Below, in pieces: positions 33,507-60,717 of a DNA stretch of 64,000 bases. Source of the DNA: Agromyces protaetiae (GTDB lineage Bacteria > Actinomycetota > Actinomycetes > Actinomycetales > Microbacteriaceae). Position 1 is the stretch's first letter. Each line of letters opens with the position of its first letter. The DNA is taken from NCBI RefSeq assembly GCF_004135405.1, contig NZ_CP035491.1:434001-498000 (forward strand). The letters are read 5' to 3'. Made by a program: the position numbers and the translations under genes. Below the pieces are notes generated by a model that was not told the origin of the DNA, made no database searches, and was given only the letters and a program-made list of their open reading frames with translations.

Positions 33507-35231
33507 ATGACCGATCGGATGCTCCGCACGGCCGCCGCCTCGGCGGCCGCCCTCGCCGTCGCCGTGCTCGCCGCCTGTTCCGCCGTCGAAGCGCCGGGCG
33601 GCGGCGACCGCGTCGCCGGCCCCCGAGATCGTGCCGCTGCAGTCCACGACGTCGCCGAGGCATCCGCTCGACTGCAGGAACTGCTGCTCGAGGTCGGCGG
33701 CCTCTCCGATCTCGCCGACGAGGTCACGTCGCTCGCCGCGCACAGCGACCGCCTGCTCGAAACCGTCGACGTCGCTCCCGTGGCCGAGAGCCGGACGGGG
33801 ACCTCCCCGGCGATCGAATTCGCGAGCGCGCGTCGGCGGACCGCGACGGCCGAGGACGCCCCGATCTCGAGTCTCGGCGTCTCCCTCGGACTCCTCCAGC
33901 TTCCGACCGTCGCACGCGGTGCGCTCTCCGCCGCCGAGAACGGGGAACCGCAGCTCGGCGAGGACCTGAGCGAGACCGTCGACGGCGGCGAGATCGCCCT
34001 CGGAATGCGATCGAAGTTCGCCGACGGGCGCCTCACGGCCGAGTCGACGAGCCGCATGACCGGGCCGAACGGCACACCGCTCGTGAGCTGGGAGACGAAG
34101 GCCGACCTGCTCGCCTGCCCCGCCCCGGGCGGCGAGGTCACGGGCACGCTCACCTTCGACGTGCGGACCTCGGCGAAGACGGGTGAGGTCGTGTACGGCG
34201 GCACGCTGCGGATCGTCGTCGTCGTCACCGCCCGAGTCGACGACGACGCCCGCGTGGCGAGCCTCGAGCTCGACGTCGACGGCAGTCTCAACGAACTCGC
34301 CTCGGGACCGGACGGCACCTCGGGCGCCTACCTCGACGGAGGCGGCACCCTCACCGCCGACGACGTCTCCGCCGGCGACTTCGACTACACCGTCGACGGC
34401 GGCATCCGCCGCGCGAGCCGAGACGCGACCGATGCGCAGCAGGAACTGTTCGTCAGGTCGATGAGCGAGGTCGCGGCCGGACTCGGCCGGATCGTGCTCG
34501 ACGACGTCGAACGCTTCTTCCGCGGCGGCACCTGCATCGACGTGATCGTCGACCCGGGCCCCGAATCGTTCGCCGAACCGGGGCAGACCCTCGACCAGGA
34601 CATCACCGCCGTCAGCACGTCCGACGGGGCGGGCGTCGAAGGACGCGCTTCCGCGGAACCGGCCGACGACGGGGCATCCGTCGACCCAAGTGGAACGCTC
34701 GCCCCCACCCCCGCCCGCGTCGTCGTGACCGGGCCCGACGACTCCGGCGAGAGCGGCACCGTGCGCTACGAGTTCGTCTCGAACCGCGGCATCGGGACGC
34801 TCGAGCTCGTCTACCGGGTGAGCGACGCCTGGATCCTCGACTTCACCGAACAGGGCGTCCGGTACACGGCCGCGAAATGCGGCGGTCCCGAAGGCGAGTG
34901 GACCGTCCGCCGGTTCGGGGTGCCCGACGGCAACGGCGGCTCACTCGACGGCACGATCGTGTTCGATCTCGACCCGCTCGGTCACATCGGCTACTTCACC
35001 GAGACCTCGACGCTCGCCTTCGGCGGCGACGTGTTGTACGGCACCTGGTCGGGCATGGCGAGCTTCGAACGCGTCGATGACGAGACGGCGATCCTCGACC
35101 TCGACTACGAGTCGGGCACCGTGCGCTACGAGGGCATGCAGGAGACCGCGGCGTCCGTCGTCGACCTCCCGCCCATGGAACTGCGGCGGGGCTCCGCCGA
35201 CGACTGCGACCAAGGAAAGGCACGATCGTGA
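33507..35231 (+). CDS. Large secreted lipoprotein of unknown function
   Basis: The 574-residue protein has a lipoprotein signal (MTDRMLRTAAASAAALAVAVLAAC, Cys24 in LAAC). The mature part is acidic and rich in Asp/Gly/Ser beta-strand patterns. It has a mid-region linker (ASAEPADDGASVDPSGTLAPTPA) and C-terminal strands such as VRYEFVSNRGIGTLELVYRV and GGDVLYGTWSGMASFERVDDE. Two Cys pairs may form disulfides. No family is recognised. It opens the operon with the PhlG-like hydrolase (GTGA overlap) and the giant wall protein (ATGA overlap), so the three probably work together at the cell surface. Confidence 0.75.
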   Translation: MTDRMLRTAAASAAALAVAVLAACSAVEAPGGGDRVAGPRDRAAAVHDVAEASARLQELLLEVGGLSDLADEVTSLAAHSDRLLETVDVAPVAESRTGTSPAIEFASARRRTATAEDAPISSLGVSLGLLQLPTVARGALSAAENGEPQLGEDLSETVDGGEIALGMRSKFADGRLTAESTSRMTGPNGTPLVSWETKADLLACPAPGGEVTGTLTFDVRTSAKTGEVVYGGTLRIVVVVTARVDDDARVASLELDVDGSLNELASGPDGTSGAYLDGGGTLTADDVSAGDFDYTVDGGIRRASRDATDAQQELFVRSMSEVAAGLGRIVLDDVERFFRGGTCIDVIVDPGPESFAEPGQTLDQDITAVSTSDGAGVEGRASAEPADDGASVDPSGTLAPTPARVVVTGPDDSGESGTVRYEFVSNRGIGTLELVYRVSDAWILDFTEQGVRYTAAKCGGPEGEWTVRRFGVPDGNGGSLDGTIVFDLDPLGHIGYFTETSTLAFGGDVLYGTWSGMASFERVDDETAILDLDYESGTVRYEGMQETAASVVDLPPMELRRGSADDCDQGKARS

Positions 35232-35905
35232 TCAAGCTCCCACTCCCCGAACCCCTCCCCCTCGAGGTGCCGCTGCGCACGCTCGACGAACGCCGCGTCT
35301 CGATCGCGGAGTTCCCGTACCGCCGGCTCAGACTGACGATCGACCACGAGCCCCTCGTGGGTGTGACCCCCGAGATGCTGCTCTGGTGGTTCGGGCACAT
35401 CGGCGAGTCGATGGAGTACCACGGGTCGGTCCAGCCCCGATACCGCGTGTGGCACCCGCTCGACCACGTCCACTGGGGGCTCGTCAACCCCGCGCCCGAC
35501 GGAACCGTGTCGGAAGGCGCGAGATTCCGCATCATCGAGGCGATGGGGCGAGACGAGCGGTTCTACATCGACAGCGTCGACCGCGTCGAGAAGCTCGACC
35601 TCACCGGCATCCGGCTCGTCCTGCGCATCGCGGGCGCGATGTTCTTCCAGCTCGAGCACACGTGGTCGCGGGCAGAAGGGGCGACGCACTACACGAGCGT
35701 CATGGACGTCGGCTCCCGCTCGCCGCTCGGCCTGCCGATCAACGCCTACCTGCGCTCGCGGATCTTCGTGCCGGGCATGGAACGGGCGTGGCTCCGGCAC
35801 AACATCGAGGAGGTCGGCCGATTCGAGCACTTCCTCCCAGACCTCTACCGAAGCCGCCGCGACGCAGACCTCGCGGCCGAACCGAACGGAATCGCTCGCG
35901 CATGA
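35228..35905 (+). CDS. DAPG hydrolase (PhlG)-like protein
   Basis: The 225-residue protein matches the pattern of the 2,4-diacetylphloroglucinol hydrolase family: a Pro/Leu-rich start, LTIDHEPLVGVTPEMLLWWFGHIGESMEYHG, then YRVWHPLDHVHWGLVNPAPDG with His residues that could bind zinc, and QLEHTWSRAEGATHYTSVMDVGS. PhlG cleaves a C-C bond of an acylated phenol, and homologues are found in many Actinobacteria with unknown substrates. No signal peptide is seen. GTG 35228 overlaps the lipoprotein stop and its own stop overlaps the next ATG. The family call is from remembered motifs and not a search. Confidence 0.6.
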   Translation: MIKLPLPEPLPLEVPLRTLDERRVSIAEFPYRRLRLTIDHEPLVGVTPEMLLWWFGHIGESMEYHGSVQPRYRVWHPLDHVHWGLVNPAPDGTVSEGARFRIIEAMGRDERFYIDSVDRVEKLDLTGIRLVLRIAGAMFFQLEHTWSRAEGATHYTSVMDVGSRSPLGLPINAYLRSRIFVPGMERAWLRHNIEEVGRFEHFLPDLYRSRRDADLAAEPNGIARA

Positions 35906-38900
35906 CCGCCTCCCCCGCCGCCCACGTACGCCGACTCGCGACGGCCCTGGTCGCCGCCGCGATCGCCGCACCCGCCGTCGTCGCGGTCGCACCAGCCGCG
36001 ATCGCGACGGACGATCCGCCCGCGTCAGCCGCGTCGGATGCCCCCGACGCATCGGCCCGCCCGACCTGGATCGACGAGCTCGAAGCCCGGATGTCCCGCG
36101 CGGACGCCCGCACGCACGCCACGACGGCAGCCGTGGACGCCGCCGACTGCACGACGACCTGGACCGGCCCCTCGACGGGAGGCGACTGGACCGACGAGCG
36201 CAACTGGAACGCGGGAACGCCCGACATCGACGACATCGCGTGCATCACCGCCGACGAGGTGCGCATCCCCGCCGACGGCACGGTGCTCGTGGGTCGGCTC
36301 GCCGCCGACGCCGACCTCGTCGTCGAGGGGCGCCTCTCGGTCGGCGACGGCTCGCACGCCCGCAAGATCTCGCTCGTCGGCGAGTACGACCGCGCCTCCG
36401 AGCCGACGCTCGGCGTGCAGCCCGACTCGACGCTCGCGGTCGACCACCTCGAGGCGCACCAGACGGCCGGGGCGCTCGTGATCGGCACGGGCACCCTCTT
36501 CGTCGGCGAACGTCTCGACGTCTTCTGGTCGAAGCTCCAGGTGTTCACGCCGCTCGGCACGGCCGAGGGCGTCGCCGCCGTGATCGGCAAGGAGAGCTCG
36601 CTCACCCTCGCGGGCGGCGGCAACCTCGACGGCGACTGGACGGTCGACGCCGACGGCCGTATCGAGACGAACACGGTCGTCGGATGGTTCGGTGGCAGCA
36701 CGATCGCGGGCGACGGCGGCCTGCACGTGCTCGACCGCGGACGAATGCTCGTGAACGGGACGGCGACGATCGGCACGACCGACGTCGCCGTGGGCGGCGA
36801 GCTCGCCGTCGGCGCTCCCGGCTCGACGTTCGGCGGGCTCGGCATCGGCGGGACCGTGCATCTCGACCGCGACGCGGCCGCGAAGGACGTCGAACTGCGC
36901 GGCGGCACCGTCGACTCGGTCGGCGACCTCACGGTCACGGGAACGCTCACGAGCCGCGGCGGGTCGATCACGACCTCGGGCGACGCGACGGCCTCGAGCC
37001 TCGTGCTCGCCGAAGGCCTGCTCTCGCTCGAAGGCACACGGTTGCGCGCCGACCGGTTCGAGTTCGCGCAGGGGTCCGAGAGCCGTATCGCCCTCGACGA
37101 CGCGGCAGGGCTCGACCTCGGGTCGGGCGTCGCCCTGCCGGGGTCGTCGGCCGTGATCGACGGGGCGGGCTTCACGACGATCCGCAGCACGTTCGAGCTC
37201 GACCGCGCCTCGGTCGACCTCGCGGGCCCCGCCGAGATCGGCGCCGACGCGTTCGTCGGCGTCAGCGCCGACTCGAGCCTCCGCCTCCGCGGAGACACCG
37301 TCCGGATCCGCGGCGGCGTGCACGCCGCCGGCGCCCTCGAGTTCAGCGGCATCGTCGAGGTCGCGAAGGAGGCCGTCGTCTCGGGGGTCTCACTCTCGGT
37401 CCCCGCGGGCGGAAGACTCGTCAGCTCGGGCTGGATGTCGGCGACGACGTTCGGCGACGCCGGCGACGTCGAGCTCCGCGACGACGCTCGCCTCCTCGTT
37501 TCGGAAGGGACGACCGTGACGGGCGGATTCGCGCTCGCGGGCACCTCCCAACTGGTCTCGACGGGTGGGGTCGCGGTGACCCGGGGGCGGCTCGACCTCG
37601 GTACTCGGACGGGGGTGGATGTCACGGGCGGCGACCCCGTCGCCGCCCTCGTCGTCGGTCCCGACGGCGAGCTGTCGGGCACGGGAGCCGTCTTCGGCGA
37701 CGTACGGAACGACGGCGTCGTCGCCCCCGGCGAGGCATCCGCCTACGACCGCCTCACCATCGACGGCTCTTACGTGCAGACCGGTGCGCTGCGCATCCGC
37801 GTCGGCCAGCTCCACCAGGACGAACTGCACGTGACGGGAACGGCTCGCCTCGGCGGCACGCTCGACGTGCGCGCGGACCGCGACGCCGCGATGCCCGGGA
37901 GCTACGGCGTGCTCGTGGCATCCGCCCTGTCGGGCGACTTCACGACGGCGCCCGACGGCTGCCACCGTGTGACGCGCGAAGACGGCACGGTCGTCGTGCA
38001 CCTTCGGCTGTGCGTACGCGTCGACGACGCGGAGGTCGCCGAGGACGGCGGCGTCGCCGAAGTGCCCGTCTCGCTCTCGTCGGCGCCCAACCAGCCCGTC
38101 CGGGTGAGCTGGACGACCGAAGAGGACACCGCCAAGGCCGGCGAGGACTTCGAGCCCGAGACCGGGACCGTCGAGTTCGCGCCCGACGAGACCGAGAAGG
38201 TCGTGCAGATCCCCGTGCACGACGACGACGACCGCACGGGCGACGTCGAGTTCTCGGTGAAGCTCGAGCTCGCGATGGGCGCGGAGATCACACGGGGCAC
38301 CGCTCGGGTCGTCATCCGCGAGAACGAGACGCTGCCCGAGTGGACGACCCGCTCGCTCACGACGCTCGGCGCGGCGCGCATCACGCACCTCGACGAGAGC
38401 ACCGTCTACTGGTCGCTCGGGGACGTCGCCTATGCGAGCGCACTCTCGGGCGGCAAGCCCGCGAAGCTCCCCGGCGTGCTGCGCGTCGCCGACACGACCG
38501 CCGAAGGCCTCGCCGTCGGCATGTGCACGTCGGAAGATCCCGGCCCGCGCGAGGTTCCGTGCTGGAACGACGGCGAAGCCGAGGAGTGGACTCCCATGCG
38601 GCATCCCGACGGCGGCATCGCCGAGGTCGTCGCGATCGCCGACGACGGTCGCGTCGTCGGACGGTTCACGCCCTTCGACACCACCGCGGGCGTGCGCGAC
38701 CTGCTCTGGAGCGGGCTCGACGCCGTGCCGACCGACCTCGAGGGACCGGGCCTCGTCGTCGACCTGAACGCCTCGGGCGACATGGTCTTCACCTCGGAGG
38801 ACGGCGGCCCCGAGCAGAGCTGGTTCCGCAGCGCCGACGGCTACGTCACCCAGTTGCCCGGACCGATCCGGCCCGGCACCGACCGCACCGTCGCGGCCGC

Positions 38901-41900
38901 TCTCGGCGACGACGGCCGCGTGGTGGGCTCCTGGAGCGGAGCGGGCGTCGAGCCGACGGCATGGATCTGGTCGGCCGACCTCGGCTCGACCGAACTCGGC
39001 CGCGGCACTCCGACCGACCTCAACGCACGCGGCGACGTCGTCGGCGATGTCACGGTCGCCGGCCGCACGCGGGCATGGGTGAGCCGCGACGACCGCTGGT
39101 CGCTCCTCCACGAAGTGGGCGACGCCGTCGACCTCGGACTCGGCGAGTACTCGGGCGCCCTCGCCATCAACGACTCCCGCATCATAGGCGCGTCGCTCGG
39201 CCTCCGCGAATACGATGCGCACACCGACTTCGTGCTCTATCCGCTCGGCTCGGCGCCCGAGCCGTCCCGGCTCGACCTGGGCGGCCGGATGGACGAGCCG
39301 CTCGTCTCGGGCGACGGCGACGACCGGGTGCTCGTCGTCGACCGGACGGTCGACGGCAACGCCGTGCGCCTCACGGCGACCGCGTACGACAACGACGAAC
39401 GCGACGAACGACCCGTGACGGGGCTGCGGCTCCGATTCCTCGTCGACGGCGAAGTCGTCCACGAGAGCGAACCGTTCGACCTCGCCCCGGGCAGCAACCG
39501 CGAGGAGCACTACGACTGGGACACGACCGGACTCGCGTGGTCGGGCGGCGAGCTGAGCGAGCCGTTCGCCGTGCGCATGGAACTCGTCGGTGAGGAAGGG
39601 GTCGTCTCGGCCCTGGAAGGCGAGGTCGCGGTCGAACCTCGTCCCGTCGTCGGCGTCCCCGGTCACGGCGCCGAGCCCGACGGCTGGTCGATGTTCGCGG
39701 ACCGCCTCGACGACGTCCGCGACGACTGGTCGCTCACCGTCTCGCAGCAGGCGCTCGACGGCGCCTCCGCGACGATCGAGGCGAACGCGAGGCAACTCGC
39801 CGCAGACGTGCGCTCGGTTCGCGCGGTGACGAACGCCGCCCAGGTCGACCTCGTCGCCCACTCGACCGGCGGCCTCGTCGCGCGCTCCTACATCGACGGA
39901 CTCATGCCGACGGGCGACGCGCGAACGGTGGCCCAGCTCCTCATGCTCGGTACGCCGAACGCCGGATCGGCGTGCGCCGACTTCTTCCTCGACCCCGCGC
40001 ACCTCGAGTTCCGCACCGACCTCGTGGCGCGGTTCAACGCCGAGGTGTCCGACGCGCACGGTGTGCGGTTCGCCGCCGCGGGCGGCACCGAAGCCGTGCA
40101 CACATGCGGAACGGACGAACCCGGCGACGGCGCGACCACGATCGGGTCGGCCCTCGCCGGGGTCGCGGATGTCCGGAGTGCGCCTCTGCTCCTCGAAGAG
40201 CTGCTCGGCGACGAGGAGCTGTTCACGCAGTTCGTGCTGCCGCGCCTGCGCGACGCGCGTGCGCTCGAGGCATCCGGCGCCTTCGAAGCGGGGCTCCGCT
40301 CGATCGGCCTGTTCTTCGACGGACTGTTCGGCGCGACGGCGGCGCCGGGCGCGAGCGCGAGCGCGACGGATGCTCCGCAGCTCCTCTCGTCGGGACGCAC
40401 GACCGTCCAGCCGGGGCAGTCGGGCAGCGCTGCGACGACCGCGCCGCCCGGCCCGGCCGAACGCGTCGGCATCACGATCGCCGCGCCCGGGACGATCACG
40501 GGCGAGTTCCGGCGCGATCTCGTCGGCAGCGAGCAGCGGGTTCCCCTGCCGCCCGGCACGGGGCGACGAGCCACCGCACCGCCGTGTACGCGGCTCCCGA
40601 GTCGGGCGCCTGGCGCGCGACCTTCGCGAACGCGGGTGCCGCGCCCGTCACAGTGCCGTGGGCCGTGTGGGCGGATCGCACGCCCACGACGCTCGCAGGA
40701 GACATCCGCTCGATCGACGCCTTCGGCACGGCCCTGCTGACCGCGCGGCTGCAGGTGCCTGCGAACTTCGTGCGGCCCGTCGCGGTGCTCGCCTCGACGG
40801 TCGACCGGGCCGGGACCTCGCACGCCTCGACGCTCCGCGACGACGGTGCGGGCGACGACGACACGGCGGGCGACGGCGTCTACACCGCGCGGCTCGACTC
40901 CCTCCCGGAGGGCACGGTCGGCGCCCGGTTCACCGTGAACGTCGCGGGCGTCCCGTACGAGGCGACCTCGGCGACGATCGTCGAACTCGGCTCGGACGGC
41001 CCCGGCAACGACGCCCCGATCGCGGCCGACCTCGAACTCGACGCGGTCGTCGCCACCCAGACCTGGGTGACGTTGCGCGGCGTCGACCCCGAGGGCGACC
41101 CGCTCACGTACACGATCGAGGATCAGCCCGAGCACGGCACGCTTGCGGGCACCGCTCCCGAGCTCACGTATCTGCCCTCGAACGACTTCGTCGGCGACGT
41201 GAGGTTCTCGTACCGGGTGTGGGACGGGCAGCTCTCGTCGCCCGCTGCGACCGTGACGATCCACGTCGGCAAGGGCACGGTGCGCTCGGAGCAGGCGCCG
41301 ACCTACGGCCAGGGAGCGCTCGTGCACCAGCGCATCGTGCTCGAGGGGCCGGGCGGGGTCATCCCCGCGAACCCCGACGTCGCGCTCACGGCGACCTGGT
41401 TCGGCGAGGCCCTCCCCGTCGAGCTCGTCGACGGGCACTCCTCGGTGCTGCTCGACGTGCCCGTCGACGCGAGCGTCGGGTCGCACCCGCTCCGCATCGG
41501 GTTCCCGGGTGACGATCTGCACGAGGCCGGCGAGGTCGTGATCCCCGTGCGGGTGACGACGAACCGGACGCCCGAGGTGCAGGCGTTCTTCACGGCCGCC
41601 GTGCCCGAGGCGGGGTACGACACGCGGTTCGACGTGCTCGCGTCCGACTGGGAGCAGGGCATCGTGCGCTTCGAGCTCGACGCGGACGGCGACGGCACGT
41701 GGGAACACTCGATCGACCACGCCGTCGAGCCCGGGAGCGACTCCGTCGAGCGTGCCGTGCATTTCGTGCACCGGTACCCGGCTGCGGGCGACGCCACGGC
41801 GCGCCTGCGGGTGACCGATCGGGCCGGTGCGAGCGCAGTGCGGGAGATCACGGTGTCGGTCGCGCCCCACGGCGAGGTCGGCGCGAACACGTTCGTTCCG

Positions 41901-43574
41901 GATGTCTCGGGGGCCCCGTTCGCGATCGAGCGCGCCCCTGCGGATCTGGGACGCAACGTGCAGTTCGTCGGCGACGGCGGCCGGTATCTCCTGACCGCGC
42001 ACGACGCGTCGCCGCTCGGCGACCCGGCCGAGACGCGCACGGTCCGGTTCACCGTGACCGACACGGACGACGGCACGAGCCGCGACTACGAGCTCCCGCT
42101 GCCGTTCGGCGACCCGGGCGACGTGCGGCTCGCGCCCGAGCACCCGTTCGCACGCGCCGGCGACCGGTTCGTGGACCTCGCCTCGGGCGTCGCGCTGCCG
42201 ATCGAGGATCTCGGCTTCGACTGGCGCTCCGCCGTGAGCGACGCGGGCGACCTCGTCGTCGGCACGACGACGAGCGACGGCGTCGCGGTGTTCGACACCG
42301 CCGCGGGTGAACAGACGTCGATCGACGTCCCCGGCCGGGGTCGCGCGGTGCTGAGCGGCGACGGTGCGCGCGTTCTGCGTCGCGGCGACGCGGACGGCGA
42401 GATCGCGGTGTTCGACCTCGCGACGGGGTCGGCGGTGACGACACCGGTCGCGCCGGTCGCCGTCGAGGTGCTCGACGCGAGCGACGACGGCACGAAGGTG
42501 CTCGTGCGCGCGCTCGGCGACCTCGGACCCGAGCACGACGACGTCGACGCGCTGCACGATGTGTTCGTCGTCGACCTCTCGGACGGGAGCCTCGCCGAGG
42601 TCACGCGCTGGATCACGGAAGACACGGCCGGCACGAACAGCCCGCAGCAGGCGATCCTGAGCGGCGACGGGTCGAAGGTCGTGCTGTGGGCGAAGGCGAG
42701 CTCCACGTCGGCGGCTCAGGTGCATCTCGTGGATGTCTCGACCGGCGAGCCGTCGCTCGTCTCGGCCGACCGCGACGGCGCCCCCGGTGCCGTCGCCCTC
42801 CCCGGCGCGGGTGACTGCGGCGGATGGACGTGGTGCGTCTCGGGACAGAGCGCGTGGAAGCTCGACGACGGCCCGATTCTCGGCGTCGTCGACGACGGGT
42901 CGAGCGTGCGGTACGCGTCGTATGCGAACACCCTCGCGCCGGGCGACGTGCACTTCGTGTCGATGCCGGGCGCCGACGAGTCGCCCGCGTCGCCGCCGCG
43001 CCTGCAGTTGAACTTCTTCACGTGGGCGGCGCCGGTCGGCGAGGAGCCCGAGGAACCCCAGGAACCCGAGGAACCCCAGGAACCCGAGAACCCCGGCGAA
43101 CCCGAGGAACCCGAAAACCCCGGCGAACCCGAGAACCCAGGCGAACCCGAGAACCCGGGCGAGCCCGAGGAACCCGAGAACCCGGGCGAGCCCGAGGAAC
43201 CCGAGAACCCGGGCGAACCCGAGAACCCCGGCGAACCCGAGAACCCCGGCGAACCCGAGAACCCCGGCGAACCCGAGAACCCCGGCGAACCCGAGAACCC
43301 AGGCGAACCCGAGAACCCCGGCGAACCCGAGAACCCCGGCGAACCCACCCCGCCTGGAGATGGGCCCGGAGAGCCGCGAGAACCACGAGAGCCGCAAGCC
43401 CCGCAGGCGCCGCAGGCGCCGGACAGCCCGCACGCGCCGACGCGCGACGACGGACTCGCGAAGAGCGGGGTCGACGCGCGGGCGCTCGTCGCGGCGGCCA
43501 TGCTCGCGGGACTCGCGGGGGCTGTGCTCGTGCTCGAGACGCGCAAGCGGCGCGGCGGGCGACGGCTGCGGTGA
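35902..43574 (+). pseudogene. Giant wall-anchored multidomain surface protein, one frameshift
   Basis: The gene reads to 40560-40563, where one G is missing from a GGGG run, and resumes one frame over. Restored it encodes about 2,557 residues. In order: signal peptide (1-37); Gly-rich beta-helix-like repeats (90-700); a Calx-beta domain (about 703-812, DDAEVAEDGGVAEVPVSL); HAF/propeller-like repeats (815-1115); an alpha/beta hydrolase with nucleophile in VDLVAHSTGGLVARSY (about 1320); a domain with DDGAGDDDTAGDGVYTA; a cadherin-like repeat; a PKD-like domain; a TolB-like propeller (about 2000-2370); an ENPGEP stalk; and a sorting signal LAKSG, membrane helix and RKRRGGRR tail. ATG 35902 overlaps the upstream stop. 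It probably acts on lipid or ester substrates outside the cell (inference). Confidence 0.75.
43041..43346 (+). repeat. Tandem 18-base repeats encoding the ENPGEP stalk
   Basis: About 17 head-to-tail units, mostly GAACCCGAGAACCCCGGC with variants (EEP, QEP), encode a Pro/Glu-rich, proline-spaced rod of about 102 residues. It lies before the sortase-type anchor. Such stalks lift surface domains beyond the wall. The near-identical units make copy-number change by slippage or recombination likely and assembly uncertain. Confidence 0.95.
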
Positions 43575-43619: not shown

Positions 43620-46600
43620 TCACCACCGAAGCGAGATGCCCGAGCGCTCGACGACGTCGCGCGTCAACCGGTCCGCCGCGCGCCGGTGCTCGGCCGCGCG
43701 ATCGTCCCAGCCGAGACGTTCGGCGATGTCGGCGAGCAGCCGATCGCGGGGGCCCCAGCAGGCGAGCGCCGTGCCTGCGACGACGAGCGGGGCCGTCGTC
43801 TCGGCGAGCGCGGTGTACGCGTCGGTGAGCAGCGGGGTGCCGAGCCGAACGGCGACCGCGGCGGCCTGCGCACGGTCGAAGTCGCTGCCCCAGTACGGGA
43901 ACACGGGCACCCGGCGCAGGTTCCACCGCGACTGCATGGCGCGCGCCTCGTGCTCGGCTCCCGCCTCGGCGAGCGCGAGCACCGCCGCCCACCGCAGCGT
44001 GCGATGGGCGTCTTCCGAGGCTTTCGCGACGATGCGGTCGGCGACGAAGGCGACGTCGCCTTCGAGCCGGGCGAGCGTGAGCGTCTGGATGGCTCGCCCC
44101 CACTCGCCTCCCCAGATGCTCGTGCGTCGGAGCCGGTCGTAGGTGCGGTCGATGAGGGCCCGCGCGTCGTTGAACCGGCCCTCGAGCATGGCGGCGCACG
44201 CGAGCTGGCCGGCGTGCTGTGCCTCGAACTCGGTGCGTCCGAGTCGAGGGATGAGTTCCCCCGCGCGCTCGGAGTCCTCGGCGAAGCCCGCGATGTCGCC
44301 CGTCGACAGTCGGATGGAGGCGCGGTGCAGTCGGGCGACGATCTCCCCCGGCACGCGGTCGCCCGGGCCCCGGGCGTCGCCGCGGAGGCCGAGCCAGCGG
44401 TCGAGCACCGCGAGACGCGCGCCTTCGCCGCCGGGCCGCCAGAGGGTGAAGACCCGGCTGCTCGAGGCTCGAGCGAGCACGGCGGGGTCTCCGGATGCCG
44501 CAGCGTGCTCGATCGCGCGATGTGCGGCCTCGACGCCGCGATGCCGGTCGTCGTCGTCGCCGTAGTAGAGCTCCATCGCGAGCGCGCAGTGCAGGTCGGC
44601 GCGTTCGGCGTCGGTCGTCTCAGGGTCGTCGATGACGCCGTCGAAGAGGTCGATGGTCTCGCGGTCGACCTCGCCGAGCTGGCGCCAGTTCCAGAGCGTG
44701 ACGCCGCCGAGGAGGGACAGCGCGCGCACGGTCGCGGCGCGGTCGCCCAGTCGCTGTGCTTGGCGCAAGGTCGCCCGGAGGCTCTGTGCCGCGGCTTGCA
44801 CGTCGCCCGCCTCGCGCTGCTCCTCGGTGAGTCGGAGGAGGACGTCGATCCGCGCGCCGGGGTCCGCATCGGCGGGCAGCATCGCGAGCGCACGCTCGCG
44901 GAACCGTGCCGCACGGTCGAATGCGAGCGTGCTGCGGGCCCGGTCGGCGGCCTCGGTGCACGCCTCGAAGGCCGCACGCTCGGGCACGCCTGCGGCGGCC
45001 TCGTAGCGGTGGTGGGCGAGCTCTTCGAGTACGGAGTCGGCATCGACGACGTGTGCCCGCTCGAGGGCGTCGGCGTATGCGGCGTGCGCGAGGATGCGTT
45101 GCGAGGCCGTCATGGCGTCGAGCACGGCATCGCGGGCGAGGCTGTGGCTGAACGTCCAGCCGGTGTCCGCCGCGCGCAGCACGCCGACCCGCTCGGCGGA
45201 CTCGAGCGCGTCGAGGAGCTCGTGTCCGGCGAGTGAGGTCGCCGCCGCGAGCGCGGGCCGGTCGAGGCTCTGACCGCCGACGGCGGCGAGGTCGACGAGT
45301 CGGCGTACGGGCGGTTCGAGGCTTTCGAGCCGCCCCGTGAAGAGTTCGGCGATCGAGGCGGGCAGCGGACCGTCGGCGCCCTGGGCGAGGAGCGTCGTGA
45401 CGAAGAATGCGTTGCCGCCCGTGCGTTCGGCGAGCCGTTCGGCGCGGGCCCGGAGCGTGTCGGCGGTCGCCGCTGCACGGTCTGCCGCGTGGGTCTCGTG
45501 GGCGTCGATGAGCTCGGCGACCTCGTCGACCGAGAACGGTGCGAGGAGCAGTCTGCTCGAGGCATCCTCTCTCGCGAACGCCGTGAGCAGCGACGCGACC
45601 TCGGTGCGTTGCGACTCGGGTTGGCGTGCCGTCACGACGAGTCCGCACGGCGTCTCGCGGGTGCGCGCGGCGAGCAGTCGCAGTGCGTGCAGCGACGCCG
45701 AGTCGACCCACTGCAGGTCGTCGACGACGAGGAGGATCGGGTTCGCCGCGGCGGCCGCGAGCACTCGCGACACGATCGCGTCGGAGAGCTCGAAGCGTGC
45801 GGCGTCGCCGAGATCGGCCCCGCCGTCCGTGACTCGGTCGCGCAGTTCGTCGAGCTGCGCGGCTCCGGATGCCTCGGCGCCCGGCAGTGCGCCGAGCAGC
45901 TGCCGCCAGATCCAGAGCGGGGGCACCCCGGCACCGTCGACGGAGCGCGCCCAGACGACGTCGATCCCCGCCCGCGCGGCGCTGCGGGCGGCCAGCTCGG
46001 CGAGGTGCGTCTTGCCGACGCCGGCTCCGCCTTCGAACACGACGACGTGCCCGCGGCCTTCGCGGACGTCTCGGAGCATCCGGTCGATCTCGACGCGTTG
46101 GGCGGTGCGGCCGACCGTCACGGGGTCGGTCGCGGAGTTCGCGTCCGCCGACCCGGTGGCCGCTCCGTCCCGGCCGGCGTCCGCGTCCGCATCGGCGTCG
46201 CGCAGGATCCACGTGTGCAGGTCGCGCACCCGCGGACCGGGGTCGATTCCGAGTGCGTCGACCAGGAGCTCTCGGAACTCGTCGAAGAGCGACAGCGCGA
46301 TCGCGGTGTTGCCTGCGGCATGCTCGGCGCGCATCCGCAGCTCCCAGTAGCCCTCGTCGAGCGGCTCCGCCTCGGTGAGCGTCCGCGCCCGTGCCGCCGC
46401 GCGCCCGGCATCGCCGATCCCGAGGAGCACGCGCGCTTCGAGTTCGTCGATCCGACGTCGCGCCCGTGCCAGCCGCCGGCCCTCGACGACGAGCTCGTCG
46501 CACGTCGGCAGTCCCGCGAACGGCTCGCCGCGCCAGAGCACGCGCGCCGCCTCGACGGCTGCGGTCGCCTCGGCCCAGGACTCCTCACCGCACGCGTGCT

Positions 46601-46988
46601 CGGCACGCCGCACGGCGTCGGCGAAGCGCACGAGGTCGATCCGGTCGGGGCGGACGTCGAGGAAATAGCCGGGCGCCTGCGTGACGACGCGGACACCGAG
46701 GGGCTCGAGCTGGCGGCGCAGCCGCGACACATAGACGTAGAGCGCTGCGACGCCCGATTGCGGCGGCTCGTCGTCCCACAGCTGTGCCATGAGCCGGTCG
46801 GCCGAGACGACGCGACCCGGGCTGAGGGCGAGCAATGCGAGAAGCGCCGACACCCGCCCGACCTGCGGCGACACGGCGAGTCCGTCGGCGTGGACCTCGA
46901 GCGGCCCGAGGAGCCCGACCGACGGGTGGGCGGTGCGGGCCGGACGAACCTGCGAGCCGGCCGATTCGCGGGCGAACGCGGTGGACAC
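43620..46988 (-). CDS. AfsR/SARP-type transcriptional regulator with ATPase and TPR region
   Basis: The 1,122-residue protein has a SARP winged helix (about 22-110, LLGPLEVHADGLAVSPQVGRVSALLALLALSPGRVVSADRLMAQLWDD) and a BTAD helical domain (to about 270, ALGIDPGPRVRDLHTWIL). An AAA-16 type ATPase follows, with Walker A GGAGVGKTHLAELA (about 325) and Walker B NPILLVVDDLQWVD. A long C-terminal TPR-like region ends at SGISLRW. AfsR-type proteins activate secondary-metabolite or stress genes on ATP/ligand sensing. It lies 11 bases after the FAD monooxygenase gene on the same strand, so that enzyme is a candidate partner. No clear biosynthetic cluster surrounds it. Confidence 0.9.
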   Translation of the reverse strand: MSTAFARESAGSQVRPARTAHPSVGLLGPLEVHADGLAVSPQVGRVSALLALLALSPGRVVSADRLMAQLWDDEPPQSGVAALYVYVSRLRRQLEPLGVRVVTQAPGYFLDVRPDRIDLVRFADAVRRAEHACGEESWAEATAAVEAARVLWRGEPFAGLPTCDELVVEGRRLARARRRIDELEARVLLGIGDAGRAAARARTLTEAEPLDEGYWELRMRAEHAAGNTAIALSLFDEFRELLVDALGIDPGPRVRDLHTWILRDADADADAGRDGAATGSADANSATDPVTVGRTAQRVEIDRMLRDVREGRGHVVVFEGGAGVGKTHLAELAARSAARAGIDVVWARSVDGAGVPPLWIWRQLLGALPGAEASGAAQLDELRDRVTDGGADLGDAARFELSDAIVSRVLAAAAANPILLVVDDLQWVDSASLHALRLLAARTRETPCGLVVTARQPESQRTEVASLLTAFAREDASSRLLLAPFSVDEVAELIDAHETHAADRAAATADTLRARAERLAERTGGNAFFVTTLLAQGADGPLPASIAELFTGRLESLEPPVRRLVDLAAVGGQSLDRPALAAATSLAGHELLDALESAERVGVLRAADTGWTFSHSLARDAVLDAMTASQRILAHAAYADALERAHVVDADSVLEELAHHRYEAAAGVPERAAFEACTEAADRARSTLAFDRAARFRERALAMLPADADPGARIDVLLRLTEEQREAGDVQAAAQSLRATLRQAQRLGDRAATVRALSLLGGVTLWNWRQLGEVDRETIDLFDGVIDDPETTDAERADLHCALAMELYYGDDDDRHRGVEAAHRAIEHAAASGDPAVLARASSSRVFTLWRPGGEGARLAVLDRWLGLRGDARGPGDRVPGEIVARLHRASIRLSTGDIAGFAEDSERAGELIPRLGRTEFEAQHAGQLACAAMLEGRFNDARALIDRTYDRLRRTSIWGGEWGRAIQTLTLARLEGDVAFVADRIVAKASEDAHRTLRWAAVLALAEAGAEHEARAMQSRWNLRRVPVFPYWGSDFDRAQAAAVAVRLGTPLLTDAYTALAETTAPLVVAGTALACWGPRDRLLADIAERLGWDDRAAEHRRAADRLTRDVVERSGISLRW

Positions 46989-46999
46989 GGCCGATCCGA

Positions 47000-48153
47000 T
47001 CAGACGGGCGCCGGCGGGCGCCAGGTCTGGACGGACTCGAGCTGCCGGCGGAGTGCGGAGGCGGGAGTCATCCGCAACACCGCGTCTCGCACGCGCGCAC
47101 CCGCACGACTTCGCACGTGCGCGACGGCGCCCAGGGTTCGAGCGCGCCTGGCGATCGGCTGGGTGCGCTCGCGACGCAGACCGTCGTAGGCCTGGAGTGC
47201 GGCATCGATGACGGATGCGTCGGGGGACGGGTCACCCGCGATGCGTTCGAGCAGGGCGGCGAGCGTCGCAGCATCCTCCATCGCCTGACCGCCGCCCTGC
47301 CCGAGGTCGGGGTCATCGCGTGCGCGGCGTCGCCGAGGAGCACGCAGCGCCCGCGGCGGAAGGTCGGCACGGCTCCCGCGAGATCGTTGATGTCGAGCCG
47401 GAAGACCGTCGAGCGCTCGGTGGCCGCGATGATCTCGGGGATCGGGGCGTGCCATCCGCCGAAGCGGCGCTGCACTTCGGCGTACTCGTCGTCGATCTCG
47501 CTGTCGGCCGGCATCGACGCGACCGCGAACCAGTAGATGCGGCCGTCGGCGAGCGGGGCGAGACCGAAGCGCTCGCGGTGGCCCCACGTCTCGCCCGCCT
47601 CGCCGTGGAGGTCGACGGGCTCGGCGGTGACGCCCCGCCAGGTGCTGTAGCCCGAGTAGCGGATGCCGGGGTCGGCCGGCCACGAGGCCCGCACCTTGCT
47701 GCGGATGCCGTCGGCGGCCACGATGACGTCGAACCGTCCGGGTCCGTCGGATGTCGTGAGCGTTCGGCCGTCGGAGCAGACGCCCGACACGGCCGTGCCG
47801 AGACGGACGGTCCCGGGCCGGAGGGCGCCGAGCAGGAGTCGGTGCAGGTCGGCCCGATGCACGATGCGCAGTTCGTCGACCGCGCCGTCGGGGATCTTCG
47901 CGAGCCAGGTGCCGTCGGGACGTCGTTGGCCGCCGACGAGCTGTCGGGCCTCGGTCGTCGTGATCTCGCGGAACGCGTCGCCGAGCCCGAGCGAGTCGAG
48001 TGCGGTCAGACCGTTGGCGAAGATCGAGAGTCCCGATCCGACGGGCTCGAGCGCGCTCGCGCGTTCGAAGACCGTGACATCGGCACCCGCGCGTTGCAGG
48101 CCGATCGCCGCGCAGAGTCCGCCGATGCCGGCGCCGATGATCGCTGTGCGCAT
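47000..48153 (-). pseudogene. FAD-dependent aromatic monooxygenase, frameshifted
   Basis: Class A flavin monooxygenase (salicylate hydroxylase/PHBH-like). MRTAIIGAGIGGLCAAIGLQRAG is the FAD Rossmann motif. FDVIVAADGIRSKVR is the DG motif and VLLGDAAHAMTP the GD motif. After AHAMTP the frame breaks; one added base near 47308 gives DLGQGGGQAMEDAATLAALL, the expected continuation, and the stop at 47000 for 384 residues. It diverges from the TetR gene across two palindromes and is followed by the AfsR gene. Such enzymes hydroxylate aromatics or inactivate antibiotics; the substrate is unknown. Confidence 0.85.
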
Positions 48154-50492: not shown

Positions 50493-51392
50493 ATGCCGCA
50501 CTTCCCCTCGACCGTTCCGCACCTCGTGGTCTGCGGCCCCGCCTCGTGGAACCACCTCATCGTCCTCGACCGCCTGCCCGAACCCGTGCCGCACATGCAG
50601 TTCGCGACCGGCTCCGTGCACACGGTCGGCGGCACGTCGGCGGGCAAGACGCTCCATCTCGCGTCGCTCGGCGCGGCGGGCGGATTCACGTCCGAACTGC
50701 ACGCCCTCGTCGCCCGCGACGCAGATGGCCGCCGCATCGTCGACGCACTCGAAGGTGCGGGCGTCGACCTGCACGCCCACACGTCGGGCGAGACCGAACG
50801 CCACGTCAACCTCATGACCGAGGCGGGAGCACGCGTCTCGCTCTACGTCTCGACGCCGACGGAGCCCGACGCGGAGACGCTCGCGACCGTCGAAGCAGCG
50901 CTGGCCCGGGCGACGATCGCGGTCGTCGACCTGAGCGGGTTCGGCGCCGAGGTACTCGCGCGTCGCGCCTCCGCGGGGGCGGCCGCGTGGACTGCGCCCG
51001 TCTGGGCGGATCTCCATGACTACGACGGCGCGAGTGCGTTCCACGAGCCGTTCGTGCGGGCCGCCGAGGTCGTCTTCATGAACGACGACGGCACCGACGA
51101 CCCGTGGGCCCTCATGGCGTCGTGCCTCGCGAGAGGACCCCGCCTCGCGATCTGCACGCTCGGTGCGGAGGGTGCGATCGCGCTCGCCGCCGACGGGCGC
51201 CGGTTCGGCACGCCGGCCGTCCCGATCGGGGCCGTCGTCGACACGAACGGCGCGGGCGACGCGTTCTTCGCGGGCTTCCTCGCAGCCCGGCTGGCCGGCG
51301 AGGAGATCGACGGATGCCTCGCGGCCGGCGCCGCACAGGCGATCGTCGCGCTCGCATCCGAACACCTGCATCCGGCGCTCGACCGGCGCTGA
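50493..51392 (+). CDS. PfkB-family carbohydrate kinase
   Basis: The 299-residue kinase has the N-terminal sugar-binding region (VVCGPASWNHLIVLDRLPEPV, HTVGGTSAGKTLHLASLGAAGGF). The C-terminal PfkB signature VVDTNGAGDAFFAGFLAARLAG holds the catalytic Asp and the anion hole. LAICTLGAEGAIAL is the usual preceding strand. The substrate cannot be told; ribokinase-, fructokinase- or KDG-kinase-like roles are all possible. It lies 90 bases after the FAD oxidoreductase on the same strand and convergent with the next gene. Confidence 0.85.
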   Translation: MPHFPSTVPHLVVCGPASWNHLIVLDRLPEPVPHMQFATGSVHTVGGTSAGKTLHLASLGAAGGFTSELHALVARDADGRRIVDALEGAGVDLHAHTSGETERHVNLMTEAGARVSLYVSTPTEPDAETLATVEAALARATIAVVDLSGFGAEVLARRASAGAAAWTAPVWADLHDYDGASAFHEPFVRAAEVVFMNDDGTDDPWALMASCLARGPRLAICTLGAEGAIALAADGRRFGTPAVPIGAVVDTNGAGDAFFAGFLAARLAGEEIDGCLAAGAAQAIVALASEHLHPALDRR

Positions 51393-51476: not shown

Positions 51477-52694
51477 TCAGACGCGCGCGTCTTCGCGCGC
51501 CGCGACCGCTCGCGGCGCCGGCCCGCGCCGCACCCGGTACGCGCCCGGGCGCGAGAGTTCGGCCCGCGGATCGTTGATGGTCATGCGGCACACCCACGAC
51601 TTGATCGCGGCGCCCAGCCGCCCCGTGAACGCGAACGGCAGGGGCGAGTCGTCGGGTCGCGCCGGCTGGATGTAGCCGTCGCGCCGCCCGAGGCTGATCG
51701 AGGGCCCGAGAAGCCCGATCGAGAGAGGTTCCGGGGCTCTGCCGCGGAGCTCGGCGAGTATCCGCTCGGCGGCGGCGAGCCCCATGGGAAGGGCGACGCG
51801 CGCACCCATCGGCAGGTGCGCGGCGACCGAGTCGGGCGGCCGGACGGCGTCGCCCGCTCCCACGATCGCCGGATCGTCGAGTGCGGCGAGCGTCTCGTCG
51901 ACGAGGAGCCGACCCCGTTCGTCGACCGCGAGGCCGCTGTCGCGCGCGAGCGTCGGCACATCGAACTCTGCCGCCCACACCGTCGCGTCGGCGCCGACGA
52001 AGCGCCCGTTCTCGAGCGACGCGCCGTCCGGCGTCACCGAAGCCACCCGCGCGTGGTCGACGATCTCGACGCCGAGCCGTCGCAGCCCCCGCACGATCCG
52101 CCGCTGCGCGGCCGGCCGGAGAGCCGCCCCGACCGGCCCGCTGCTCAGCAGCACGATGCGGGTCGCGGGGTGCGCCTCGGCGAGCTCGCTCGACACCTCG
52201 ATGCCCGTCGGCCCGCCGCCGACGACGTTCACCCGTGCAGGCGGGGTCGGCGCGGCGAAGACGTCGCGCACGCGCGCGGCGCCGTCGAGGCCGCCGATCG
52301 GCAGCGCATGCTCGGCCGCGCCGGGCACCCGGCCGACCGCCGACGACGACCCGACGGCGTACACGAGCCGGTCGTACGGCACCACGACGGGGCCGACCGC
52401 CGTCTCGACGACGACCCGGCGGGCGTCGGCGTCGATCCGCCGGGCTGTGCCGATCACGAGCCGCACCCCCGCACCGACCATCGACGGGAACGCGAACGCG
52501 ACGTCTTCGCCGCCCGCTGCGAACTCGTGCAGCCGGATCCGGTGCACGAACCGATCGGTCGGGTTCACGATCGTGACGCGCACGCGCGTCGCCTCGTCGG
52601 GCGTCAGCGATCCGCGCAGGCGGTTGGCCGCGATGACGCCTGCGTAGCCGCCGCCGAGGATCACGACGGAGACGGGAGACTGCTGCCGAGACAT
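51477..52694 (-). CDS. NAD(P)/FAD-dependent oxidoreductase (NDH-2-like)
   Basis: The 405-residue flavoprotein has two dinucleotide folds. FAD is bound by VVILGGGYAGVIAANRL (about residue 10) and the NAD(P)H site is VNVVGGGPTGIEVSSELAEAHP (about 155). The FAD-closing motif is DDPAIVGAGDAV. This matches type-II NADH dehydrogenase or FSP1/AIF-like oxidoreductases without a membrane anchor. The ATG 52694 lies 20 bases after the stop of the HtrA-like protease gene, so the two are likely cotranscribed. Confidence 0.85.
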   Translation of the reverse strand: MSRQQSPVSVVILGGGYAGVIAANRLRGSLTPDEATRVRVTIVNPTDRFVHRIRLHEFAAGGEDVAFAFPSMVGAGVRLVIGTARRIDADARRVVVETAVGPVVVPYDRLVYAVGSSSAVGRVPGAAEHALPIGGLDGAARVRDVFAAPTPPARVNVVGGGPTGIEVSSELAEAHPATRIVLLSSGPVGAALRPAAQRRIVRGLRRLGVEIVDHARVASVTPDGASLENGRFVGADATVWAAEFDVPTLARDSGLAVDERGRLLVDETLAALDDPAIVGAGDAVRPPDSVAAHLPMGARVALPMGLAAAERILAELRGRAPEPLSIGLLGPSISLGRRDGYIQPARPDDSPLPFAFTGRLGAAIKSWVCRMTINDPRAELSRPGAYRVRRGPAPRAVAAREDARV

Positions 52695-52714: not shown

Positions 52715-54271
52715 TCAGAACTTCGCCGAGAAGCTGCCGATGACGCGGTCGATCGCCGCGAGGTCCTCTTCGGCGTTCGCCTGCACGGCGACCGTGATGA
52801 CGTACGAGCCGTTCTTCGCATTCGCCGCGAGGAAGATGTACGACGCGCCCGGCTCGCCGCATCCTTCGTAGACCTCGTACTTGCCCTCGTGCAGGCCGTC
52901 GTCGAAGACGTCGGCGCCCGCGAGCGTGCAGTGCTGGGTCAGGAACACGGCCGCATCGGCCACGAGCGCGTCGACCGAGCGCGCGCCGACGGCGTCCTCG
53001 GATGCCGCGATCCACGTGCCGGGGGCGTTCCACGTGTCGCTGAACGCCGCCATGTCGGGGGTCGCGACGATGCTCGCCCACGTGCCGAACTCGTTCGTGT
53101 ACCCGGCACCGTCGAGGTCGTCCCACGAGGCGGGGACCTCGACCGAGATCGCGCCCGAGTCGTCCGTCACCTGCACGAACTCGCCCGCCGCCGCGCCGCC
53201 CGCCGCGGCCCCGCCCGGAGCGCTCTCGACGACCTGGACGGGCGCGAGCTCGTCGCCGTTGAACTGGCCGCGGTAGTAAAGCCCGTCGGAGGGGCGGTAG
53301 ACGTGGACGTCGATCGTCGAGTCCTGTCCGTGGGTGCGGAGCACATCGCAGTAGTCGGCGAGGGTGCCGTCCGTCGCGAGCGTCACGCCCTGCATGCGCG
53401 TCACGAGGTCGCCCGGCAGGATGCCGGCCTCGTCGGCTGCGGATCCCGACGCGACCGAGCTGACCCAGACACCGAGCCCGTTGCCCTCCTCGTCGGTGAT
53501 CGCCTGCGCGTTGATCCCGAGGCTCAGCACGTCGTGGCCCTCGATGAGGTCGCCGACGACCGCCAGCACCTCGTCGCGGTGGATCGCGAGATTCGTGTCG
53601 TAGGTGTTGTTCCCCGCATAGTTCACGCCGACGAGCCGGCCTTCGGCGTCGACGAGCGGGCCGCCCGAGTTGCCGCCGCGGATGCGCGCGTCGTGCTCGA
53701 TGACCTCGTCGATCGAGGCCCACGGGGTCTCGCCGCGCGTCGACGCCTTCGACACGATGCCGCGCGTCATCGTGAAGGTCGGGTCGCCGAGCGGGAAGCC
53801 CGCCGCGTACACATCGGTCGCCGTCGCGATCTCGCCCTCGTGCCATTCGAAGAACGGCAGGTCCTCCGCGTCGAGCCGGATGACCGCGAGGTCGAGACAC
53901 TCCGACGATCCGAGCACTTCGGCGTTGAGCGTCTTGCGCGTGTCGCCGCCGACCCACACGTCGAGCGTGCCGGCACCGACCACGACATGGTTGTTCGTGA
54001 CGGCGAGTCCGTCGGGCGAGATGAGGAATCCCGATCCGCGGCCCGCGGCCTCGTACCCGCCCGACTCGGGCGAGACGAACGTGCCGACCGCCTCGATCTG
54101 GATGGTCGCCGATTGCACGCCGTCGAATCCGACGGCGCCCGGTGCGCGGCCCGGATCCGAACCGGGGATGCCCGGCAGACCCGCGCATCCGGAAAGCGCG
54201 GCGACAGCCCCGACGGCGGTCGCCGCGAGAGCCGTGCGCGCGAGTCGGGGCGGGCGTGTGGTCGAGTTCAT
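52715..54271 (-). CDS. HtrA/DegP-like lipoprotein serine protease
   Basis: The 518-residue protein has a lipobox (AALSGC, Cys29), so the protease is anchored outside the membrane. The S1C triad is visible: His in GLAVTNNHVVVGAG (about 95), Asp in SSECLDLAVIRL (about 127) and Ser in RIRGGNSGGPLVDAEG (about 202). A PDZ-like domain follows (VSSVASGSAADEAGILPGDLVTRMQGV), then an Ala/Gly linker and a C-terminal domain of about 150 residues (VPASWDDLDGAGYTNEFGTWASIVATPD). That last domain with four Cys is extra to HtrA. The ATG at 54271 has GGAGCACATC in front. Confidence 0.87.
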   Translation of the reverse strand: MNSTTRPPRLARTALAATAVGAVAALSGCAGLPGIPGSDPGRAPGAVGFDGVQSATIQIEAVGTFVSPESGGYEAAGRGSGFLISPDGLAVTNNHVVVGAGTLDVWVGGDTRKTLNAEVLGSSECLDLAVIRLDAEDLPFFEWHEGEIATATDVYAAGFPLGDPTFTMTRGIVSKASTRGETPWASIDEVIEHDARIRGGNSGGPLVDAEGRLVGVNYAGNNTYDTNLAIHRDEVLAVVGDLIEGHDVLSLGINAQAITDEEGNGLGVWVSSVASGSAADEAGILPGDLVTRMQGVTLATDGTLADYCDVLRTHGQDSTIDVHVYRPSDGLYYRGQFNGDELAPVQVVESAPGGAAAGGAAAGEFVQVTDDSGAISVEVPASWDDLDGAGYTNEFGTWASIVATPDMAAFSDTWNAPGTWIAASEDAVGARSVDALVADAAVFLTQHCTLAGADVFDDGLHEGKYEVYEGCGEPGASYIFLAANAKNGSYVITVAVQANAEEDLAAIDRVIGSFSAKF

Positions 54272-57130: not shown

Positions 57131-57223
57131 CTTCGGTCCTCGGGTCGTTCGGTGCGTATCGGGTCGGGCGCGAGGCATCCGGTGGTCGAGCGGCGGGGTG
57201 ATGCCGCTCGACCACCGGGTCCG

Positions 57224-58588: not shown

Positions 58589-58645
58589 TGTCCTGTCCTT
58601 TCGGTGCTGTGTCGGTGGTGCGGTGGGTGGTGCTGGGTGGTTCGG

Positions 58646-60346: not shown

Positions 60347-60402
60347 TGCGTCTCCTCGTCGGGCTGCGCGCCGCAGTCTGGAGGACGTCGGCGTCGATGC
60401 AC

Positions 60403-60461
60403 GTCAACGTAATGACAGCAACAGAATGATGCAACTATTCAACAATCAGACTGAATATTGC
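60403..60461. promoter_or_regulatory. Promoter/operator region of the GH13 operon
   Basis: This AT-rich patch in a GC-rich genome has two inverted repeats. GTCAACGTAATGAC (60403-60416) has matching outer half-sites (GTCA/TGAC). GCAACTATTCA (60431-60441) pairs with TGAATATTGC (60452-60461). Sites like these suit a LacI-family repressor such as the one encoded just upstream. The operon start is at 60346. Confidence 0.5.
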
Positions 60462-60548
60462 GACGACTTGCGTCGATTTGCGGAAGTGGCTTGCAGACTC
60501 CGAGCAAGCGTCTGCACGAGGCATCCGCCGCTCTCATGCCGCCCTGCA

Positions 60549-60600
60549 TCCATCCACCCCCGTCCCCACCCCACCCCGCACCCCACCCCACCCACCCACG
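60549..60600. other. C-rich tract (G-quadruplex-prone on the reverse strand)
   Basis: About 50 bases consist of C runs separated by single A, T or GT (for example CCCCACCCCACCCCGCACCC). Read in the direction of the neighbouring genes it is a series of more than six GGG/GGGG runs. It lies between the LacI stop and the GH13 promoter, next to hairpin copy 3. Confidence 0.7.
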
Positions 60601-60678
60601 TTTGTCGGACAATCGCCTGTTTGTCGGATATGTGCTCGCTCTCACGTCCGACAAACCGGCAGATGTCCGACAAACACG
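60599..60678. repeat. TTTGTCGGAC long-hairpin element, copy 3
   Basis: CGTTTGTCGGACAATCGCCT and a second TTTGTCGGA face ACGTCCGACAAACCGGCAGA and ATGTCCGACAAACACG across a short loop. Pairing is weaker between the cores (CAATCGCC opposite GGCAGATG), but the TTTGTCGGA cores are kept, suggesting selection on the cores. It lies about 40 bases after the LacI stop on that gene's strand. Confidence 0.8.
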
Positions 60679-60696
60679 AGTGGAGCGCGGGGGCGC

Positions 60697-60710
60697 GGGG
60701 GGGGGGGGGG
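60697..60710. repeat. Run of 14 G, just after the LacI stop
   Basis: Fourteen consecutive G follow GCGC and end seven bases before the LacI-family stop codon (60718-60720). It is the longest homopolymer in the window. It may be variable in length, or its true length uncertain, given the other homopolymer errors nearby. Confidence 0.8.
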
Positions 60711-60717
60711 ACGCCGG

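Follow-up and report, generated by a model that had tools for sequence, protein, structure and literature searches.

A giant surface protein gene and a PhlG-like hydrolase gene at one end of a conserved flavoenzyme and regulator cluster in Agromyces protaetiae

Genes for a lipoprotein, a relative of the 2,4-diacetylphloroglucinol (DAPG) hydrolase PhlG and a giant surface protein lie side by side in a 64,000-nucleotide stretch of the Agromyces protaetiae genome (contig NZ_CP035491.1 of assembly GCF_004135405.1, positions 434,001 to 498,000; hereafter the window). They form the left edge of a conserved cluster that spans about 17 to 19 kb (33.5 to 50.4–52.7 kb in the window) and continues with genes for flavoenzymes and regulators (Table 1). 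The locus is a new arrangement of known parts, of wider extent and with less catalytic certainty than was recognized in a preliminary description, made from the sequence alone, which had stopped at the trio. Because of the PhlG-like enzyme, handling of an acylated aromatic compound by the locus is plausible. The window lies within a one-contig genome of 3.68 Mb (G000).

Results

The three genes belong to a larger conserved cluster

A scan for PhlG-like genes in one genome per species, based on an alignment of three sequences, yielded 71 loci, which were searched with the window genes by tblastn along with one locus each from genomes G080 (L007) and G244 (L095), 73 in total. Genes for the PhlG-like protein, a BTAD-ATPase regulator, a flavin adenine dinucleotide (FAD)-dependent monooxygenase (FMO), a TetR regulator and an FAD oxidoreductase (FADox) were found together in six copies (the window, G244, G080, and three Microbacterium-type genomes), and in Nocardioides cavernae (L032). 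The order in G244 is that of the window, running from the lipoprotein gene through those for the PhlG-like protein, giant, BTAD regulator, FMO, TetR, and FADox to a pyridine nucleotide oxidoreductase gene; between the last two, the window has a PfkB-family gene that G244 does not have there. In the Microbacterium-type genomes (L024, L025, and L026), the FMO, TetR, and FADox genes lie directly past the regulator; next comes a PfkB gene in each genome and, in two of them, a gene for an HtrA-like protease. The G080 stretch carries genes for PhlG, BTAD, TetR, FMO, FADox, the oxidoreductase, and the lipoprotein, and no giant was found in it. N. cavernae carries FMO, FADox, PhlG, BTAD, and TetR genes, and Geodermatophilus sabuli (L076) PhlG, FMO, and FADox genes with a weaker BTAD match. 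Altogether, more than one cluster gene was present at 15 of the 74 loci with matches, among which G244 is represented twice (L095 and L172), and several of the 15 have a single partner at 36–41% identity. Most of the PhlG-like genes found lie outside such clusters, as far as their flanks show.

The preliminary description knew of no described system with this combination of genes. A literature search, with subscription literature mostly outside its scope, likewise found no description of the cluster.

The PhlG-like protein is a remote member of the DAPG hydrolase family

PhlG-type enzymes cleave C–C bonds with a fold unlike that of the usual alpha/beta hydrolases, and few have been characterized. 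The window protein scores 31.7 bits against PF18089 (DAPG_hydrolase; cut-off 22.7), with only residues 44–85 aligned. Clustering gave 65 open reading frames (ORFs) from 63 of the 74 loci, 55 of which encode 190–270 aa; from these, 29 were hand-picked for an alignment, and 24 of its members match PF18089 at E ≤ 0.01. The best Protein Data Bank (PDB) matches of the 29-member profile, both weak, were PhlG (3hwp, E 0.043) and phloretin hydrolase (5xe5, E 0.22). Residues H80, E104, H191, and E195 are invariant in 29 of 29 proteins and pair, through weak alignments to 3hwp and 5xe5, with the His, Glu, His, and Glu that we take to be the metal ligands of PhlG-type enzymes. H144, present in 24 of the 29 including all five encoded beside a giant, pairs by a similarly weak alignment with what is presumably the catalytic histidine of PhlG (His214). 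The preliminary description had already called the protein a relative of a cytosolic C–C hydrolase.

PhlG uses zinc and has a Bet v1-like fold; its repressor is the TetR protein PhlH, whose gene adjoins phlG in Pseudomonas (PMC8003664). One mycobacterial protein has been assigned to the PhlG type on structural grounds in published work (PMC8562490). TetR genes were found near the PhlG-like gene at 23 loci, mostly mycobacterial and with one member confirmed by Pfam, along with genes that look like ABC exporters. The window protein thus resembles PhlG and phloretin hydrolase in family score, ligand and catalytic-histidine positions, and TetR neighbors at several loci. It differs in being remote and shorter (225 aa against chains of 279–302) and, from PhlG, in being encoded within a flavoenzyme cluster rather than a phl cluster. 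RecA matches of the initial three-sequence profile proved to be repeat-sum noise that disappeared with 29 sequences, and weak PhlG matches in G069 and G350 were not counted. A second, divergent PhlG-like paralog (33–35% identical) lies upstream on the other strand in L024 (8100–8600) and L025 (2276–2785).

A candidate oxidative pathway, weighed against biosynthesis

The reading we favor, tentatively and from sequence comparison, is that the cluster may encode an inducible oxidative pathway with C–C hydrolysis of an acyl-phenol-like compound, assisted by surface accessory proteins, the frame break in the giant gene being most likely an assembly error. Inducible cytosolic flavoenzymes would oxidize a phenol- or aryl-ketone-like aromatic compound, and the PhlG-like enzyme, putatively of the zinc type, would cleave the bond between its acyl group and the ring. 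The giant would serve the pathway at the surface by capture or binding, and possibly by ester cleavage, with the lipoprotein as a probable accessory at the membrane surface. Catabolism or detoxification is weakly preferred over biosynthesis.

The strongest alternative, although on balance unlikely, is a small biosynthetic cluster in which an AfsR/SARP-like regulator turns on flavoenzymes that make a phenolic product, which the PhlG-like enzyme trims or inactivates as PhlG does DAPG. Going by the name of its model, AfsR is a global regulator. FADox scores 401.6 bits against the NCBIfam BagK/FevA1 model, and the BTAD regulator 117.5 bits against AfsR and 63.4 against BagI/FevR, families described from Streptomyces metabolite clusters (PMC6692506). 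However, each score falls well short of its model's cut-off (800, 1430, and 500 bits, respectively), and no polyketide synthase, nonribosomal peptide synthetase, or aminobenzoate synthase was found among the cluster genes run against Pfam. In its FADox and regulator families, the locus resembles the BagK/FevA1, GriA, and NspA FAD-dependent oxygenases and their SARP regulators (bagremycin/ferroverdin and grixazone clusters). It differs from these systems in its sub-threshold scores, in holding a PhlG-like gene and surface protein genes, and in that genes for 3-amino-4-hydroxybenzoate (3,4-AHBA) synthase and aminophenol oxidase were not among the cluster genes examined.

Several observations weigh against the oxidative pathway as we propose it. 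The FADox family is known from biosynthetic clusters, and PhlG membership is remote, as the E-value of 0.043 to the PhlG structure indicates. H144 is replaced by Asn or Tyr in 5 of the 29 aligned proteins, and the position that pairs (by weak alignment) with the presumed substrate tyrosine of PhlG, Tyr229, is M159 in the window and Met, Leu, or Phe in all 29. Among about 12 Nocardioides loci, the core lies within the flank only in L032 (11 without it). No uptake system, ring-cleavage dioxygenase, or coenzyme A ligase was found among the cluster genes run against Pfam. Finally, what ties the giant to the pathway is synteny in five genomes, and three of these came up through PhlG itself.

The giant carries a lipase-like domain that may bind rather than cut

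The giant combines Calx-beta, alpha/beta-hydrolase (Lipase_2/DUF7379), Big_9/cadherin- and PKD-like, and choice-of-anchor X domains with a Pro-rich linker, and ends in LAKSG, a membrane segment, and an Arg tail. Of the modules named in the preliminary description, Calx-beta and the embedded lipase-type domain stand, while the beta-helix and propellers had no Pfam match over the cut-off. In fold, the core of the hydrolase domain matches Bacillus subtilis lipase A, and its sequence matches bacterial lipases; the model of the domain has a mean predicted local distance difference test (pLDDT) score of 54.8, with residues 185–304 unreliable (pLDDT below 50).

The preliminary description suggested that the system may sense, capture, or degrade an acylated aromatic compound or a lipid outside the cell. 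Along these lines, the giant could be an active surface esterase or lipase that releases an acylated aromatic compound, which cytosolic enzymes then degrade. In support of this, Ser 1321 of the HSTGG motif, whose conservation had been put up for checking, and Asp 1409 of the DEPGDG motif, which aligns with the Asp of family lipases, are invariant in all five giants. However, the only invariant His residues in the first part of the giant are 1320, 1367, and 1386, all of which precede the Asp, and no His is common to the five giants in the 120 residues following DEPGDG; in family lipases, by contrast, an Asp and a later His were seen by eye in 24 of 24 aligned ORFs with the Ser motif (from 28 loci). 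The notion of a giant hydrolase is weakened by this lack of a conserved downstream His, which leaves an active surface lipase improbable and suggests that the domain may bind rather than cut. An unusual or alternative use of His may also be possible, as that half of the model is poor. Compared with lipase A and Pseudomonas-type lipases, then, the domain shares the fold core and nucleophile elbow, but has no conserved His after the Asp and forms part of a wall protein some 2400 aa long.

The C-terminus may point to anchoring at the wall. Class E sortases take LAXTG (PMC5148588), and the five giants end in LAKSG (window), LAESG (G244), and LAATG, LAATG, and LAVTG (the three other relatives), each followed by a transmembrane segment and Arg residues. 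The three relatives with LAATG or LAVTG match class E substrates in motif, membrane segment, and Arg tail, whereas Ser replaces Thr in the window and G244. The genome encodes one sortase, and SrtE1 (5cuw) is fourth among its PDB matches. Judging by these features, the giant is probably exported and anchored to the wall by this single class-E-like sortase.

The giant keeps its place beside the PhlG-like gene

Four of the 73 loci contain a giant: L024 (Microbacterium yannicii PS01), L025 (Microbacteriaceae bacterium PS02067), L026 (M. hydrocarbonoxydans P30), and L095. All five giants, including that of the window, are encoded directly downstream of the PhlG-like gene, with the BTAD-ATPase regulator gene convergent beyond. 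A profile of the hydrolase domain matched 50 of 378 family genomes, with near-full coverage only in G000 and G244. The pairing of PhlG-like gene and giant in five of five is in part a matter of ascertainment, since three of the five were found via PhlG, and a giant without PhlG could escape outside the 378 genomes.

The two four-base start/stop overlaps reported in the preliminary description are present: the GTG start of the PhlG-like gene lies within the stop of the lipoprotein gene (GTGA, 35228), and the ATG start of the giant within that of the PhlG-like gene (ATGA, 35902). They are peculiar to the window when compared with the three relatives checked, in which short gaps separate the PhlG-like stop from the giant start (10642/10657 in L024, 4811/4824 in L025, and 9647/9689 in L095).

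A role for the giant as a general adhesin or wall protein at the surface, merely adjoining the pathway with no functional link, is also doubtful. Such multi-domain architectures are, as we take it, common among surface proteins, and the giant is absent from the G080 stretch and from the L032 copy of the core. Yet its position and order are kept in five genomes, although the giants are only 37–73% identical pairwise. Less probable again is a more specific proposal, a unit reaching from surface to cytosol, in which a pseudo-lipase anchored to the wall, with Ser and Asp retained but the His lost, would capture or sense a phenolic or acyl-phenolic compound, co-regulated by the BTAD-ATPase activator and TetR (fused to FADox in two genomes) with the flavoenzyme and PhlG-type C–C hydrolase pathway.

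The frame break in the giant gene is likely an assembly error

The region 35902–43574 had been described as a single giant gene. As one intact ORF in this assembly, this can be ruled out: the initial frame runs only to a stop at 40740, and near 40,563 both coding signal and homology shift into another frame that ends at 43574. Aligned with the four intact relatives, the break falls at about 40,545–40,570. In all of these relatives, the giant is one ORF (2476 aa in L024, 2486 in L025, 2436 in L026, and 2411 in L095), to which both sides of the break keep 37–55% identity.

Same-strand frame switches were called by a home-made, unvalidated Viterbi gene finder in 20 stretches (400 kb) of this genome. 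Outside the window, 23 switches were called in 369,993 coding bases, against 4 in 372,846 of the relative G244, making them about six times commoner here (p ~0.0002); the window has 6 in 59,610. At least one of the 23 is false, as two calls (L132, 4769 and 4787) mark one place on opposite strands. A G or C run of at least four lies within the surrounding 31 bases at 17 of the 23 switches and all 6 in the window, but at 0 of the 4 in G244, while 3530 and 3896 of 20,000 random places (about 18–19%) had such runs. Two of the six window switches were confirmed by homology, that of the giant and that of the FMO gene, which likewise shifts frame near 47.3 kb when compared with five relatives. As frame switches are in excess genome-wide and sit at G or C runs, the break in the giant is likely an assembly error, and broken genes in this indel-prone assembly are to be doubted. 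A biological break (pseudogene or phase variation) could be argued from the one-contig assembly and the second broken gene, FMO, but is highly improbable given this excess at G or C runs and the homology kept on both sides.

The lipoprotein is linked to the cluster yet dispensable

The 574-residue lipoprotein has a LAAC lipobox, identified by eye, and, consistent with the earlier statement that it belongs to no known family, gave no match in Pfam (E ≤ 0.1) or NCBIfam (E ≤ 0.01). A profile search of 398 family genomes gave strong matches in G000, G080, and G244 and a distant one in G347; weak matches in G216, G442, and G468 covered only about 40–80 N-terminal profile positions and were not counted. 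In G244 the gene is 2.6 kb upstream of PhlG, an interval that contains three genes on the opposite strand, and in G080 it adjoins the FMO gene of the same cluster. The profile search did not detect it in the genomes behind L024, L025, and L026. It is therefore linked to the cluster yet dispensable, occurring in two of five giant-bearing copies (the window and G244, the only places with the whole trio) and in the giant-less G080 stretch. A tight lipoprotein–PhlG operon was seen in the window only, and the trio as an obligate operon is ruled out by the three giant carriers without the lipoprotein.

A pattern scan of genome contigs with two short peptides from two sequences returned 114 stretches, none of them confirmed, which is weak evidence of rarity. 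The AlphaFold model, from an alignment of four sequences, has a mean pLDDT of 68.7. Its best Foldseek match was TamA (E 5.7e-4), but no TM-score exceeded 0.26 in the 50 listed of 1138 matches, so no fold is claimed. Structure prediction, suggested in the preliminary description for both proteins, thus gave no reliable fold for the lipoprotein and, for the lipase domain, a recognizable core with a poor second half.

Neighboring genes and cluster features

TetR and FADox are encoded by a single ORF in the window and in G244 (L172, 4903–7017, 704 aa; 72% identical), and by separate genes in G080, L185–L187, and L032; the single ORF is possibly a regulator–enzyme fusion. L024–L026 carry an NmrA/epimerase-like gene immediately before PhlG, and G080 (L007) has one beside the lipoprotein gene, with none above 35% identity in the G244 stretches. 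Beside the cluster, positions 55182–61728 of the window encode two ABC permeases, a solute-binding protein, an alpha-amylase, and a LacI regulator. As it stands with the alpha-amylase and LacI genes, the ABC transporter at 55.2–58.6 kb looks like part of a separate sugar operon; homologs of four genes of this operon also occur in the PhlG/FMO locus L028. In G244, the cluster is followed by genes that look transposase- and phage-like (L172, 8973–17835), and no other genome of the same genus matched the PhlG-like protein among 150 searched; because of these two observations, horizontal spread of the cluster is possible.

Table 1. Features of the cluster and its surroundings, in window coordinates.
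Feature	Position	Strand	Evidence or remark
Lipoprotein, no known family, 574 aa	33507–35231	+	ORF; no Pfam/NCBIfam match; homologs in G080 and G244, distant in G347
PhlG-like hydrolase (DAPG hydrolase family PF18089), 225 aa, GTG start	35228–35905	+	Pfam, profile, alignment
Giant surface protein, first part: signal peptide, beta-rich region, Calx-beta, alpha/beta-hydrolase domain	35902–40560, end approximate (frame break)	+	
HSTGG motif of the hydrolase domain (Ser 1321)	39859–39873	+	
Giant, second part, other frame: choice-of-anchor X, cadherin/PKD-like domains, Pro-rich linker, LAKSG sorting signal	40561–43574, start approximate	+	
BTAD + AAA ATPase transcriptional regulator (AfsR/SARP-LAL-like)	43620–46988	-	Convergent with giant; beside it in 5/5 (window, L024, L025, L026, L095)
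FAD-dependent monooxygenase FMO (PF01494)	47009–48153, low end approximate	-	Frame break near 47,290–47,314
TetR regulator + BagK/FevA1-like FAD oxidoreductase (FADox), one ORF, 699 aa	48303–50402	+	
PfkB-family kinase	50493–51392	+	Also beside FADox in L185, L186, L187; at that place not seen in G244
Pyridine nucleotide-disulphide oxidoreductase	51477–52664	-	Homologs in G244, G507, G509, G080
Trypsin/PDZ (HtrA-like) protease	52715–54271	-	Gene of same kind in G080, G507, G509 copies

Discussion

By encoding a PhlG-like enzyme alongside flavoenzymes, a giant wall protein, and both BTAD and TetR regulators, the cluster gives a testable context in which to look for a new PhlG-type substrate. 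It also makes a case for asking whether a protein anchored by a sortase can have a role in small-molecule metabolism.

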